This document shows, piece by piece, positions 2,630 to 9,842 of a DNA stretch of 30,963 bases (position 1 is the first letter of the stretch; each line of letters opens with the position of its first letter). Position numbers and translations under genes: made by a program. The notes below the pieces were generated by a model. It was not told the origin of the DNA. It searched no databases and saw only the letters and a list, made by a program, of their open reading frames with translations. This stretch comes from a virus: IMG/VR virus record IMGVR_UViG_3300045790_000797, positions 1-30,963 of that record. The stretch is one strand, 5' to 3'.

Positions 2630-2790
2630 TGCCAGAAGAAGTGAAAGATACATTAACAGTTATAGCTGCCAACGGTGGCGCTTTAGGAGTTAGCTTAACT
2701 CAATGCAATGAAATTCTGCAGTTTGTCTCTATGTTGTTAGCTATAGGCTATACCGCATATAGGATATATAAACTTAAAGGCATCAAATGA
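2629..2790 (+). CDS. Small one-TM membrane protein, putative holin-type
   Basis: 53 residues from the ATG at 2629. An upstream GTG would add 13 residues, but these are encoded by the TA repeat, so I prefer the ATG. Residues about 28-48 (ILQFVSMLLAIGYTAYRIYKL) form one hydrophobic helix ending in basic residues, preceded by an acidic, soluble N-terminus (MPEEVKDTL). An AGGAG lies only 2 nt before the ATG, too close to act normally as a ribosome site. The stop overlaps the next start by 4 nt (ATGA). Position directly upstream of the DUF5675 gene and the 3TM-type protein suggests a lysis role (holin, antiholin or spanin-like), which is inference. Confidence 0.6.
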   Translation: MPEEVKDTLTVIAANGGALGVSLTQCNEILQFVSMLLAIGYTAYRIYKLKGIK

Positions 2791-3257
2791 AGCTGGAGGT
2801 ATTGCGTATAAGCTCACAAGTGGACTCTACTTCGGGTCTCCTTTTTGATATATCTAACAATAAAAGAAAATTTTTATGCTACACGCTCGAAGATGAAAGC
2901 AGGGAAGAAAAGGTTTGGGGAGAGACTTGTATACCTTCCGGCGAGTATTGCCTCGGTCTTAGAACTGTGGGCGGCCTTGACGCCAGGTATTCTAAGAGGT
3001 TTGCTGACATTCATATGGGGATGCTTCACGTACTGGATGTACCTAATTTTAAATATATTCTTATTCATTGCGGTAATACTGACGAAGATACTGCTGGATG
3101 TTTGCTCTTGGGTGATACTCAAGAAAACAACCTCGTCAAAAAAGACGGATTTATAGGCAAGTCTACTCTTGCGTATATGAGGGTGTATCCTGCTATAGCG
3201 GCGGCTTTAGAAAGAGGGGAGGAGGTCACTATTGAATATACCGACTATGATACCTAA
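2787..3257 (+). CDS. DUF5675 family protein, probable lysis protein
   Basis: 156 residues. The pattern matches the DUF5675 family: an N-terminal strand ending FLCYTLED (29-36), IPSGEY (49-54), HVLDVPNFKYILIHCGNT (81-98), DTAGCLLLG (101-109) and a C-terminal AYMRVYPAIAAALERGE. The His and Cys of IHCGN...DTAGC recall the catalytic H...C arrangement of L,D-transpeptidase-like folds, so a cell-wall role is plausible, but the family has no proven activity that I know of. No signal peptide or membrane helix is visible, so it would need holin-type help to reach the peptidoglycan. It lies between two small membrane protein genes, overlapping both (4 nt and 11 nt), a classic lysis cassette layout. No other muralytic enzyme was recognised in the window. 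Confidence 0.75.
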   Translation: MKLEVLRISSQVDSTSGLLFDISNNKRKFLCYTLEDESREEKVWGETCIPSGEYCLGLRTVGGLDARYSKRFADIHMGMLHVLDVPNFKYILIHCGNTDEDTAGCLLLGDTQENNLVKKDGFIGKSTLAYMRVYPAIAAALERGEEVTIEYTDYDT

Positions 3258-5801: not shown

Positions 5802-6020
5802 ATGGACATTAGAAAAATATCAATCGGCGCAGACTATAAGTCTGGCGCGATGCATTACATAGTAGGGCAGGATGTCTTGGGTGGAAGCCATAAGATACAC
5901 CTTATACAAGACAACGACGAAGCGTATAGGATCTGGATACAGAAAACCGAAGAGGTATATCTGTGGAAGGAGTTTCGAAAAACGCTACCTATTTCTTTAG
6001 AGTTTAATATAAACTTCTGA
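5802..6020 (+). CDS. Conserved small protein of Bacteroidetes phages (unknown function)
   Basis: 72 residues beginning MDIRKISIGADY and continuing AMHYIVGQDVLGG.HKIHLI, then VYLWKEF and an ending SLEFNINF. I recognise this as a small, well-conserved protein of flavobacterial and crAss-like phages, with no known function. The start is the ATG at 5802; another ATG at 5797 is in a different, short frame. The leader holds two ATTAAA copies (5786-5791 and 5792-5797). Its TGA overlaps the next ATG (TGATG), so it is co-translated with the GroES-like gene. Confidence 0.7.
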   Translation: MDIRKISIGADYKSGAMHYIVGQDVLGGSHKIHLIQDNDEAYRIWIQKTEEVYLWKEFRKTLPISLEFNINF

Positions 6021-6580
6021 TGAAGTCCCCTTTTAGCTTTCTTGTAAAAGCATATAACGAAAGGAGATACGATAACATTAAAAAAGTAGGTGACATTGAT
6101 TTAGTCACCAGCGTATCTAAAGAGGATCACGTTTCTTCTAACCGCTTTGCGGTAGTAGAGGAGACTCCTATTAACTACTGCGGACCTGTAAAGAAGGGCG
6201 ACACCCTTCTCGTTCACCACAACGTATTCAAGTACTACTACGATATGCGGGGTAGAGAGAAGAGTGGGAAAAGCTTCTTCAAAGACGACCTATTCCTTAT
6301 CGATCCAGACCAGTTTTTTCTGTATAAATCTGCAGATAAATGGAGGGCGTATGGGAAATATTGTTTTATAGAACCCGTAAAGGCGAGGGAGTCTGTGGTA
6401 TACAAGCGTGGAGAGGAGCCTTTGATTGGGATAGTTAGATATATAAACGCTGAGCTGGAAGCTTTAGGAGTTAAGGAAGGGGATGAAGTTTGTTTCGAAC
6501 CAGAAAGTGAGTACCCCTTTACTGTCGAGGGGGAGAAACTGTATCGTATGTTTACAAATAACATTACTATGATACTATGA
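6020..6580 (+). CDS. GroES-like (Cpn10-type) double-barrel protein
   Basis: 186 residues. Two segments look like Cpn10/GroES beta-barrels. Residues about 43-71 (FAVVEETPINYCGPVKKGDTL, then LVHHNVFK) resemble the GroES 'V..VG.G...VKVGD.VLF' core. Residues about 134-183 (PLIGIVRYIN...ALGVKEGDEVCFEP, ending GEKLYRMFTNNIT) repeat a barrel-like pattern. The middle (about 85-115) is more variable. Related proteins occur next to packaging genes in crAss-like phages. It could serve as a phage cochaperonin for folding capsid or tail proteins with host GroEL, but a clear mobile loop is not obvious, so a non-chaperonin barrel role remains possible. Coupled by TGATG upstream and ATGA downstream. Confidence 0.55.
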   Translation: MKSPFSFLVKAYNERRYDNIKKVGDIDLVTSVSKEDHVSSNRFAVVEETPINYCGPVKKGDTLLVHHNVFKYYYDMRGREKSGKSFFKDDLFLIDPDQFFLYKSADKWRAYGKYCFIEPVKARESVVYKRGEEPLIGIVRYINAELEALGVKEGDEVCFEPESEYPFTVEGEKLYRMFTNNITMIL

Positions 6581-7152
6581 TATATATAGTGGACGATATA
6601 ATAGAGAAGGATCTTTTTCAACTCGCTACGGACTATTTAAACGAGGGAGAATTTGAGAAGGTAGAGTCTGGAGGCAAAGACTTTTATATAAAAGAATCTC
6701 CAGAAAGCTTTACTAAATATATCTTAAACAAGCTGGAGGAGAAGGAAGGAAGGGAGATGGAAAGCATCTTGGCTTTCTTTAGGCAATCTACAGATGAGTT
6801 AGACGTCACATGGCGTATCCATTCGGACTTAAATATAAACGGTCAACGTCCAGACAGGGCGTTAGTTTTATATATGTCCCCCAGGGAAAAGGAAGACCTA
6901 CACGGCACAGCTTTGTGGGAGCATCAGAGGTACGGTAGAGAGCTTCCAAAAGATATAACGGACGCAGAGTATGACCGCATGATAAAAGTGGACTCAGAGG
7001 TCTTAGATATGTGGAGGCTAAGTTCTGTAATTGGATATGAACAAAATAGAATGGTCTCTTACCCATCCAGTTATTTCCATAGTAAATATCCAAACACCTC
7101 CTGGAAAGAAGGTAGACAAGTATATGTAATGTTTTATAAATATAAAAATTAA
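6577..7152 (+). CDS. 2OG-Fe(II) oxygenase-like protein
   Basis: 191 residues. The order of residues fits the double-stranded beta-helix dioxygenases: HxD as H82-S-D84 (in TWRIHSDLNING), a distal His at 168 (SSYFHSKYP) and Arg180 (EGRQVYVMFYK), which would bind 2-oxoglutarate. Strands RALVLYMSP (94-102) and SVIGYEQNRMVSY (150-162) lie where expected. The N-terminal 70 residues are helical and specific. Such proteins are frequent in phages and hydroxylate proteins or modify bases; the substrate here is unknown. Its position among assembly genes (after the GroES-like gene, before terminase) argues for a protein substrate, but this is inference. It overlaps the upstream gene by 4 nt (ATGA). Confidence 0.68.
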   Translation: MIYIVDDIIEKDLFQLATDYLNEGEFEKVESGGKDFYIKESPESFTKYILNKLEEKEGREMESILAFFRQSTDELDVTWRIHSDLNINGQRPDRALVLYMSPREKEDLHGTALWEHQRYGRELPKDITDAEYDRMIKVDSEVLDMWRLSSVIGYEQNRMVSYPSSYFHSKYPNTSWKEGRQVYVMFYKYKN

Positions 7153-7155
7153 ATC

Positions 7156-7350
7156 ATGGGAGTACAGAAAAATATCTCTCTACTAAAAAGTAGGAGCGAA
7201 GACGTAACGGAGAATTTAAAGAAGTTAATTCTGGAGGAGAAACAAACACGAGAGTTAGCTATAGGCACCTTAGAGTTGTTAAAACTTATGCCAGGGTATG
7301 ACGAGGCTTTGGCTTTATTAAAAGAAAAAGCTGGGCAAGATGGACATTAA
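7156..7350 (+). CDS. Small helical protein before the terminase genes
   Basis: 64 residues, almost wholly helical and charged (NLKKLILEEKQTRELAIGTL), ending with a Leu-rich helix (MPGYDEALALLKEKAG). No domain recognised. It is preceded by ATTAAATC, and its 3' end overlaps the next gene by 11 nt, indicating coupled translation with the candidate small terminase gene. A partner of that protein is possible, from position only. Confidence 0.6.
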   Translation: MGVQKNISLLKSRSEDVTENLKKLILEEKQTRELAIGTLELLKLMPGYDEALALLKEKAGQDGH

Positions 7351-7618
7351 GGAACTTAAACTAAGTATCATCATGGCTGGCGAACAGGCTGTTAAACAGT
7401 TAGTTAGGGTAGCTAAAGAAGATATTATAAAGTATGATACTGAGGATGAGCTGGCTGCGGACAGGTTAAAGAATGCCGCTGCCACTAAGAAGCTCGCTAT
7501 ATTTGACGCCTTTGAGATACTCAAACGTATCGAAGAGGAACGGGCTATATTGGAGGGGACTGTCGTAGAAAAGAAAAACAATACACCGAAAGGATTTGCA
7601 GAGTCACGATCAAAATAG
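7340..7618 (+). CDS. Candidate small terminase subunit / conserved pre-terminase protein
   Basis: 92 residues. Contains DELAADRLKNAAATKKLAIF followed by DAFEILKRIEEE (about residues 33-64), a segment I recognise as conserved in Bacteroidetes phage proteins encoded just before TerL. The whole is helical, with a charged tail ending NNTPKGFAESRSK. Size and position immediately upstream of TerL fit a TerS (DNA recognition for packaging), but no clear helix-turn-helix is visible, so this remains inference. It overlaps the preceding small gene and ends 13 bp before the TerL start chosen here. Confidence 0.55.
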   Translation: MDIKELKLSIIMAGEQAVKQLVRVAKEDIIKYDTEDELAADRLKNAAATKKLAIFDAFEILKRIEEERAILEGTVVEKKNNTPKGFAESRSK

Positions 7619-7631
7619 TTTATATAAGGTT

Positions 7632-9842
7632 ATGCATAAACATGTGCCTAAGTCTGTTCTTGTTTCTAAGAACAAGGCTCGCACTTGGCTATACGGATAT
7701 AATGAAAAGTATGACGTAATAATAATTTCTCAAGACGGAACTTTAGGTGAGGTATATTATATCAATGGTTTATATATAGGTCTCCCTAAAATTTCTAAGG
7801 ATGTATTTAAAAGGTCGGGGAAGAAAGAGGAGCAATATTGGGAACCAACACCTATCGCAAAAGAACTGAAGAGGATTAAGTCTATCTTTCAATGGCACGA
7901 AACGCCAGACACATTTAAAGCGGAGTGGGTAGACTATGTCGAGCAGGAGTTCGATAGAAGAGAACAGGGTCATTGGTTTATGAATAACGGTTCTCCTGTG
8001 TACCTAACTGGTACACACTATATGTATCTGCAGTGGACCAAGATAGACGTAGGGAATCCAGACTTTCGTGAAGCGAATAGGATATTCTATATATTTTGGG
8101 AGGCGTGTAAAGCAGACAAGCGTAGCTTTGGGATGTGTTACCTTAAGATACGTCGTTCAGGATTCTCCTTTATGAGTTCTTGCGAAGGCGTAAACCAAGC
8201 TACTATAACTAAAGACTCCAGGATAGGTATACTTTCAAAGACAGGATCAGATGCTAAAAAAATGTTTACCGATAAGGTTGTACCTATCTCTAATAACTAT
8301 CCGTTCTTCTTCCGTCCGATACAGGATGGAATGGATAAGCCTAAAACAGAGCTGGCTTATCGTGTTCCTGCTTCGAAGATTACAAAGAAGAACATGTACC
8401 ACCTGGCGGACGAGGAGCTGGAAGGACTGGACACGACGATAGACTGGAAGAATACCGGAGACAATAGCTATGACGGAGAGAAGCTACAGCTTCTTCTCCA
8501 CGATGAGAGTGGGAAATGGGAGAAACCAGACAATATCCTAAACAACTGGCGTGTCACTAAGACATGTCTTAGATTGGGAAGTAAGGTTATCGGGAAATGT
8601 ATGATGGGCTCTACGTCTAACGCTTTGGATAAAGGCGGAAGGAACTTTAAAGCTTTGTACGAGGACTCTCTCCCAACGAAAAGAAACGCAAACGGACAGA
8701 CCAAGAGTGGACTGTATTGTTTATTTATTCCTATGGAGTGGAACTTCGAGGGGTATATAGATATATTCGGGATGCCTGTATTCACTACTCCAGGGAAACC
8801 TATAATAGGAATCGACGGGGAAGATATAACTCTGGGGGCTATAGACTACTGGAAGAATGAGGTAGACTCTTTGACTCAAGACCCGGACGCTTTAAATGAG
8901 TTCTACAGACAGTTCCCTCGCACGGAGTCGCATGCCTTTAGAGACGAGAGTAAGCAATCCTTATTCAACCTAACAAAGATATACCAGCAGATAGATTATA
9001 ACGACTCTCTTATAATGGACCACCACGTTACCCGAGGATCGTTTAGATGGAAGGATGGTATAAAAGATTCTAAAGTCATATGGTCGCCCGACAAGAGGGG
9101 GAGGTTTTTGGTTAGCTGGACTCCTCCCCCACATATGCAAAATAGAGTAGAGGTAAGGAACGGTAGGAAATATCCTGGCAACGAACACCTCGGAACGTTT
9201 GGGTGTGACTCATATGATATATCAGGAGTGGTAGTAGGAAAGGGTTCGAACGGATCACTCCATGGGTTAACTAAGTTCAATATGGACGAGGCCCCTGCAA
9301 ATGAATTTTTCTTAGAGTATATAGCCCGCCCTCAAACGGCGGAGATATTTTTCGAAGAAGTTCTAATGGCGTGTGTGTTCTACGGAATGCCTATACTATG
9401 CGAGAATAATAAACCAAGGCTCTTATACCATTTAAAGAACAGAGGGTATAGAGGGTACTCTATGAACAGGCCCGATAAAATATACAATAAACTTTCAAAA
9501 ACCGAGAAGGAGTTAGGAGGTATACCTAACACTTCGGAAGACGTAAAGCAATCCCATGCCTCTGCTATAGAATCATATATAGAAAAACATATAGGTATAG
9601 ATTTAAACGGGGACTTTAGGGACGCTGAGGATATGGGGGTTATGTATTTTAGGCGTACCTTAGAGGACTGGGCGAAGTTTGATATTAATAACCGTACTAA
9701 GTTTGATGCGTCTATTAGCACTGGGTTGGCTATAATGGCTAATCAAAAACACTTATATACACCTTCTAAACAGACTACGAAAATAAGCATTAACTTTGCA
9801 AGGTATAATAACAACAGCGCAACAAGTCAGATAGTTAAATGA
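7632..9842 (+). CDS. terL: Terminase large subunit (crAss-like TerL)
   Basis: 736 residues from the ATG at 7632; a TTG at 7596 would overlap the upstream gene by 23 nt and is less likely. This is the packaging motor ATPase/nuclease that cuts and pumps DNA through the portal. N-terminal hallmark: HWFMNNGSPVYLTGTHYMYLQ and FWEACKADKRSFGMCYLKIRRSGFSF (split here at SFGM). The P-loop is non-canonical (IRRSGFSF, about 173-180, no GK[ST]). Walker B is LLLHDE (about 287-292) and the coupling motif is GSTSN (about 326-330). The C-terminal RNase H-like nuclease has Asp526 (FGCDSYD), Glu591 (ILCENN) and Asp692 (TKFDAS). Pattern and length match crAss-like and flavophage terminases. It overlaps the portal gene by 4 nt (ATGA). 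A TAACTTTG at 9791-9798 inside its end could serve the portal. Confidence 0.95.
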   Translation: MHKHVPKSVLVSKNKARTWLYGYNEKYDVIIISQDGTLGEVYYINGLYIGLPKISKDVFKRSGKKEEQYWEPTPIAKELKRIKSIFQWHETPDTFKAEWVDYVEQEFDRREQGHWFMNNGSPVYLTGTHYMYLQWTKIDVGNPDFREANRIFYIFWEACKADKRSFGMCYLKIRRSGFSFMSSCEGVNQATITKDSRIGILSKTGSDAKKMFTDKVVPISNNYPFFFRPIQDGMDKPKTELAYRVPASKITKKNMYHLADEELEGLDTTIDWKNTGDNSYDGEKLQLLLHDESGKWEKPDNILNNWRVTKTCLRLGSKVIGKCMMGSTSNALDKGGRNFKALYEDSLPTKRNANGQTKSGLYCLFIPMEWNFEGYIDIFGMPVFTTPGKPIIGIDGEDITLGAIDYWKNEVDSLTQDPDALNEFYRQFPRTESHAFRDESKQSLFNLTKIYQQIDYNDSLIMDHHVTRGSFRWKDGIKDSKVIWSPDKRGRFLVSWTPPPHMQNRVEVRNGRKYPGNEHLGTFGCDSYDISGVVVGKGSNGSLHGLTKFNMDEAPANEFFLEYIARPQTAEIFFEEVLMACVFYGMPILCENNKPRLLYHLKNRGYRGYSMNRPDKIYNKLSKTEKELGGIPNTSEDVKQSHASAIESYIEKHIGIDLNGDFRDAEDMGVMYFRRTLEDWAKFDINNRTKFDASISTGLAIMANQKHLYTPSKQTTKISINFARYNNNSATSQIVK

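Follow-up and report, generated by a model that had tools for sequence, protein, structure and literature searches.

The genes that lead into the terminase of this virus belong to a conserved core of g72, a GroES-like gene, g92, TerL and portal, and the predicted 2OG-Fe(II) oxygenase gene that follows the GroES-like gene is an optional addition to it. About half of our confidence goes to the explanation that the product of this gene is a P4H-type oxygenase in an accessory role, which probably hydroxylates a protein and is translated together with a second co-chaperonin where the packaging genes begin.

The window, i.e., the whole stretch of DNA analyzed, is a virus record of 30,963 bases that carries its packaging genes in a single forward operon. 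Five open reading frames at 5802–7618, encoding 72, 186, 191, 64 and 92 amino acids, run into the TerL gene at 7596. The block opens with g72 (5802–6020), a core member with no Pfam family and no assigned function, which shares one nucleotide within a TGATG motif with the gene of a tandem, double-barrel GroES-like co-chaperonin (6020–6580). This gene in turn overlaps the oxygenase gene (6577–7152) by four nucleotides (ATGA). A 3-nt gap leads to g64 (7156–7350), which overlaps g92 (7340–7618) by 11 nt, and g92 overlaps TerL (7596–9842, 748 aa; PHROG 6681, E 2e-174) by 23 nt. The list of reading frames confirmed the gene coordinates and the oxygenase residue numbers of a preliminary description of this DNA. 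Its TGATG, ATGA and 11-nt junctions were correct as well, but the 3-bp overlap given there is in fact the gap before g64; the 23-nt overlap with TerL is an addition to that description. Further upstream, the window encodes a Laminin-G-like protein (1136–2284, E 1e-13) and a DUF5675 protein (2787–3257, E 4.5e-24).

For comparison we used the best 80 of 441, the best 80 of 327, the best 80 of 140 and the best 80 of at least 579 loci; all fractions describe this sample, and distinct counts were obtained by collapsing identical DNA of the gene stretch used. Among 210 sampled distinct GroES-like/TerL loci, g92 was a separate gene in 206. The slot after the GroES-like gene held the oxygenase in 103 and lacked it in 107, with the core otherwise intact, and g64 was found at 61 loci (46 + 14 + 1). 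The g72 gene stood upstream of the GroES-like gene in the window-lineage loci and also in the podovirus MW202828, Flavobacterium phage elemo and Maribacter phage Panino. On a tree of GroES-like protein and TerL (114 rows), the state of the slot changed at least 11 times, which would fit repeated loss or gain of the oxygenase gene.

The core gene g92 gave no Pfam match and no confident PHROG match. Its profile aligned co-linearly over 81 columns with the N-terminal region of longer TerLs (hhalign E 0.003, probability 10%), and a control alignment with the oxygenase profile gave E 0.54. Unlike the window, elemo, Panino and Callevirus phi38:1 have a TerL of 876–879 aa and no separate g92; the latter is also missing at locus L277, and in all four the TerL frame is open from the GroES-like gene onward. 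TerLs of 876–879 aa with a g92-like N-terminal region lie at L003:9540-12170, L152:7549-10185 and L155:7582-10221. The similarity is suggestive of g92 being a split-off TerL domain or else a TerS, and splitting or fusion of a TerL domain possibly lies behind the presence and absence of g92. We keep the label of TerS candidate as a tentative one.

The same 23-nt overlap between g92 and TerL recurred in 86 distinct junctions that have no ATG start common to all. A TTG was located at −22 in 131 of 173 distinct junctions and at −25 in eight more. TerL lay in the other frame in 30 junctions, and an ATG either directly followed the g92 stop (25 of 173) or overlapped it (5 of 173). The Phe codon that makes the TTG was TTT in 137 and TTC in none of the +1-frame group (6 without the motif), compared with 27 TTT and 3 TTC in the other frame group (Fisher p 0.005, with rows that are not independent). 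We rejected a programmed +1 frameshift from g92 into TerL, given the junctions in the other frame, the ATG starts at the g92 stop, the variable codons before this stop and the TTG at −22. The simpler reading is that the TTG within g92 is the probable TerL start in the window lineage; in another sublineage, TerL begins with an ATG at the g92 stop. At L045:6042-9275, TerL matches fell into two blocks about 0.9 kb apart, as if an intron or homing gene had been inserted.

Where the oxygenase occupies the slot, its 4-nt overlap with the GroES-like gene was kept in 108 of 109 distinct gene pairs, i.e., beyond chance. At loci that lack the oxygenase, the GroES-like/g92 junction was variable, with start positions that are approximate. 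In 47 thinned slot-clade loci, GroES-like distances correlated with oxygenase distances (r 0.77) and with TerL distances (r 0.75). As the former correlation is as high as the latter, we conclude that the slot-clade oxygenase was inherited with its neighbors. The near-invariant overlap and the co-divergence together indicate that the direct coupling of GroES-like and oxygenase genes, which had been proposed from the window, is real in the slot clade.

The GroES-like protein matched PHROG 13932, named ‘co-chaperonin GroES’, with E 4.6e-20. Its Pfam Cpn10 score of 15.0 bits lay below the cut-off of 21.1, which some relatives pass, e.g., phi38:1 at 24.1 bits, and a PDB search by sequence returned weak GroES matches only. 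In the structure model (pLDDT 78.4, pTM 0.73, with a low-confidence loop at 30–36), the C-terminal barrel at residues 107–186 aligned with GroES over 77 residues (VIA Z 9.4), a match that Foldseek found as well. The full chain aligned with 7ekq_R over 160 residues (VIA Z 9.9, rmsd 4.6). We take 7ekq_R to be a chloroplast Cpn20/23-type co-chaperonin. Model, structural matches and PHROG assignment thus support the double GroES-like barrel that had been read from the sequence. The closest known systems are GroES/Cpn10, T4 gp31 and the tandem chain 7ekq_R; compared with GroES/Cpn10, the window protein has two barrels per chain and scores under the Pfam cut-off.

This protein would not be the only co-chaperonin of the phage. 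GroEL was matched in 39 of 42 related records (38 over the cut-off), and a separate short Cpn10 frame, judged from frame lengths, was present in 39 of 42. The three records without GroEL are 48–52 kb long and may be fragments. No GroEL gene was seen in the 31 kb of the window itself; in the relatives, this gene lies beyond the part that the window covers, and judging from them the window phage probably encodes one too.

Structure prediction gave a model of the oxygenase with a mean pLDDT of 92.0 (53 aligned rows). Foldseek returned 301 PDB matches at E ≤ 0.001, and the top 50 rows were 2OG-Fe(II) oxygenases or unannotated structural-genomics entries of the same fold. VIA scored 702 of 1000 chains at Z ≥ 8 on the double-stranded β-helix fold. 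The metal triad H82, D84 and H168 was, together with R180, invariant in 33 of 33 aligned rows, down to 21% identity, and also in all 53 rows of a second alignment. R180 is the basic 2OG-binding residue after the distal His and sits on the last strand of the model. A PDB search by sequence found no match; Pfam PF20043 (DUF6445) matched over most of the protein with 25.6 bits, above the cut-off of 24. From the predicted fold and the conserved ligands we consider the assignment of 6577–7152 to the 2OG-Fe(II) oxygenases convincing, and the H82-x-D84, H168, R180 pattern picked out in the preliminary description holds.

The protein also matched PHROG 1644 (E 1.2e-9), which is named ‘minor coat protein’. 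A cyanophage S-ShM2 gene with this label has the same H-x-D, H, R pattern as the window oxygenase. As this gene adjoins three annotated 2OG-Fe(II) oxygenases, the name is probably a label carry-over. Two loci, L172:8001-8720 and L173:8001-8717, encode an oxygenase whose C-terminus is extended by about 50 aa and ends in a Cys-containing tail; at L172, the end of the gene overlaps a g64 relative.

VIA Z scores of the oxygenase were 14.7 for PiuC, 14.4 for OGFOD1, 14.1 for P. putida P4H, 14.0 for SnoN and 13.9 for PHD2. P4H rows hence lie within 1 Z of PiuC and SnoN, i.e., protein hydroxylases are tied with small-molecule enzymes. P4H-type oxygenases (P. putida P4H with EF-Tu, 4iw3/4j25; OGFOD1/Tpa1; PHD2) and PiuC share the fold of the window protein over 150–160 residues at Z around 14, but identity is just 10–15%, and small-molecule enzymes score equally. 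The oxygenase might instead be a small-molecule or metabolic enzyme, acting on an amino acid, a siderophore-like compound or at the level of 2OG, as an auxiliary metabolic gene of the kind proposed for cyanophages. PiuC as the top VIA row and HygX and GriE as the first Foldseek ranks speak for it. However, no metabolic partner gene was constant across the genomic contexts, and none emerged from a co-occurrence screen that covered 24 records, of which 15 have an oxygenase and 9 have none, and 66 families present in at least 5 records. The best non-self families occurred in 12 of 15 versus 0 of 9 records, a difference confounded by kinship, and three of these families had no Pfam match. A link to DUF1599 was rejected, as this family was confined to 2 of 42 records that both lack the oxygenase. 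We rank a metabolic role second and regard it as rather unlikely.

Not all oxygenase genes of this family are found next to a GroES-like gene. Of 151 sampled distinct genes, 110 occupied the slot flanked by the GroES-like gene and g92/TerL, 32 were located at ribonucleotide-reductase genes in a related lineage and 9 elsewhere. Pfam searches at two ribonucleotide-reductase loci identified NrdB, NrdA, a B12-type large subunit, thymidylate synthase and a MazG-like protein. In the oxygenase tree, slot and ribonucleotide-reductase contexts are one change apart. Records with non-slot contexts still carried the GroES-like gene in 22 of 23 cases (24 of 25 handles, including two slot-type ones), and in those compared it was tens of kb away from the oxygenase. 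Like the window lineage, Elemovirus (Flavobacterium), phi38:1, Panino and MW202828 have a GroES-like gene before TerL and their own GroEL and GroES. Unlike in the window, about 28 kb separate the oxygenase of elemo, which lies in the replication region and falls within the ribonucleotide-reductase group of the tree, from the GroES-like gene; that of Panino is one gene away from groEL, and MW202828 and phi38:1 gave no oxygenase match. A search with the Panino oxygenase recovered no viral relatives. Tenacibaculum phage records also matched the oxygenase, and a scan of bacterial genome contigs yielded two oxygenase loci, one of which, in a metagenome-assembled genome, resembles a phage ribonucleotide-reductase cassette.

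The 32 oxygenase genes that neighbor ribonucleotide-reductase genes of class I or B12 type, in a region that also encodes thymidylate synthase and MazG-like proteins, could point to a nucleotide or DNA base as substrate, i.e., to precursor or DNA modification. Against this, PF02867 was found in 0 of 20 slot-type oxygenase-positive records searched, the gene neighborhood may be a mere landing site, and the best structural matches include protein hydroxylases. We therefore regard a nucleotide substrate as unlikely. Ribonucleotide reductase as an obligate partner of the oxygenase was rejected, since 2 of 33 records contained PF02867 and neither was both slot-type and oxygenase-positive.

The 64-aa helical protein g64 is optional, judging from alignment and genomic contexts. 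A g64 gene followed within 700 nt downstream of 30 of the 32 ribonucleotide-reductase-located oxygenase genes. It occurred without oxygenase at 14 of 210 sampled loci and in records G023, G024 and G025, which have no oxygenase match, and was hence rejected as an obligate oxygenase partner. Since its relatives are found in ribonucleotide-reductase and GroEL/GroES operons, g64 is not packaging-specific. In records without oxygenase match, g64 relatives were seen between GroEL and GroES at L358:2197-2361 on the minus strand, between the same two genes, by coordinates, in G025, and between NrdB and NrdA at L360:2745-2951 on the plus strand.

Returning to the accessory P4H-type oxygenase that we favor, we propose the following. 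The block would be the head of a late packaging and structure operon, in which the oxygenase, often accompanied by g64, fills the gap behind the GroES-like gene as an accessory. In the slot clade the oxygenase is probably translated by stop-start coupling at the ATGA. The GroES-like protein may be expressed late and give the phage’s own GroEL a second cap for folding large late proteins. The oxygenase itself, judging from model and ligands, would most likely be an active P4H-type dioxygenase that hydroxylates a protein. For a putative substrate present both late and in DNA-precursor synthesis, a host or non-structural protein is a better candidate than a fixed component of the virion.

The preliminary description had proposed that the GroES-like protein and the oxygenase act jointly on a virion protein, by folding and hydroxylation or as quality control. 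The slot precedes TerL and portal, the Panino oxygenase is close to groEL, and the strongest point is the overlap in 108 of 109 pairs together with the co-divergence at r 0.77; these could mean one joint task, which would favor this proposal. Yet the oxygenase is absent from 107 of 210 loci with the core intact, and in the related lineage it is found at ribonucleotide-reductase genes while the GroES-like gene is elsewhere in 22 of 23 records. 2OG oxygenases are numerous in phages: one cyanophage genome is reported to have 24 of their genes; their viral functions are said not to have been studied specifically, and none is named, in the portion of that paper considered here, among the 45 proteins of the virion proteome, 13 of which are of unknown function (PMC9602691). 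Two observations speak against an essential modification of the virion: the context changes between late packaging and a DNA-precursor cassette, and many relatives keep the same core without an oxygenase. Of the single coupled assembly operon claimed from the window, the tight run into TerL and the stable overlap remain, but not the joint assembly or quality-control unit, given the 107 oxygenase-free loci and the 32 of 151 oxygenase genes at ribonucleotide-reductase genes. We found no pointer to a virion substrate, and we consider joint action on a virion protein improbable. Our ranking hence places a hydroxylase of host or non-structural proteins first and a metabolic role second, followed by nucleotide or virion substrates.

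It is very unlikely that the oxygenase, forming one co-translated unit with the GroES-like protein, has the phage chaperonin (GroEL or its caps), or a client bound there, as its hydroxylation target and so ties late folding to oxygen and 2-oxoglutarate, although the ATGA overlap, the co-divergence, the Panino oxygenase near groEL and the g64 relatives between GroEL and GroES in two relatives would fit this.

A literature search, in which subscription journals were sparsely covered, found no paper on the GroES-like/oxygenase gene pair. The components of the block are ordinary and their conserved arrangement is unusual; the domain assignments made from the window alone were right, and the functional story built on them was over-extended. 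Across a large marine phage group, the tandem GroES-like gene upstream of TerL belongs to the core. A single oxygenase family can be traced across many related phage contigs: its gene stably overlaps that of the co-chaperonin in one clade, is located next to ribonucleotide-reductase genes in a second, and is cleanly missing from other relatives. Because near relatives with and without the oxygenase exist, its substrate is testable by comparison.
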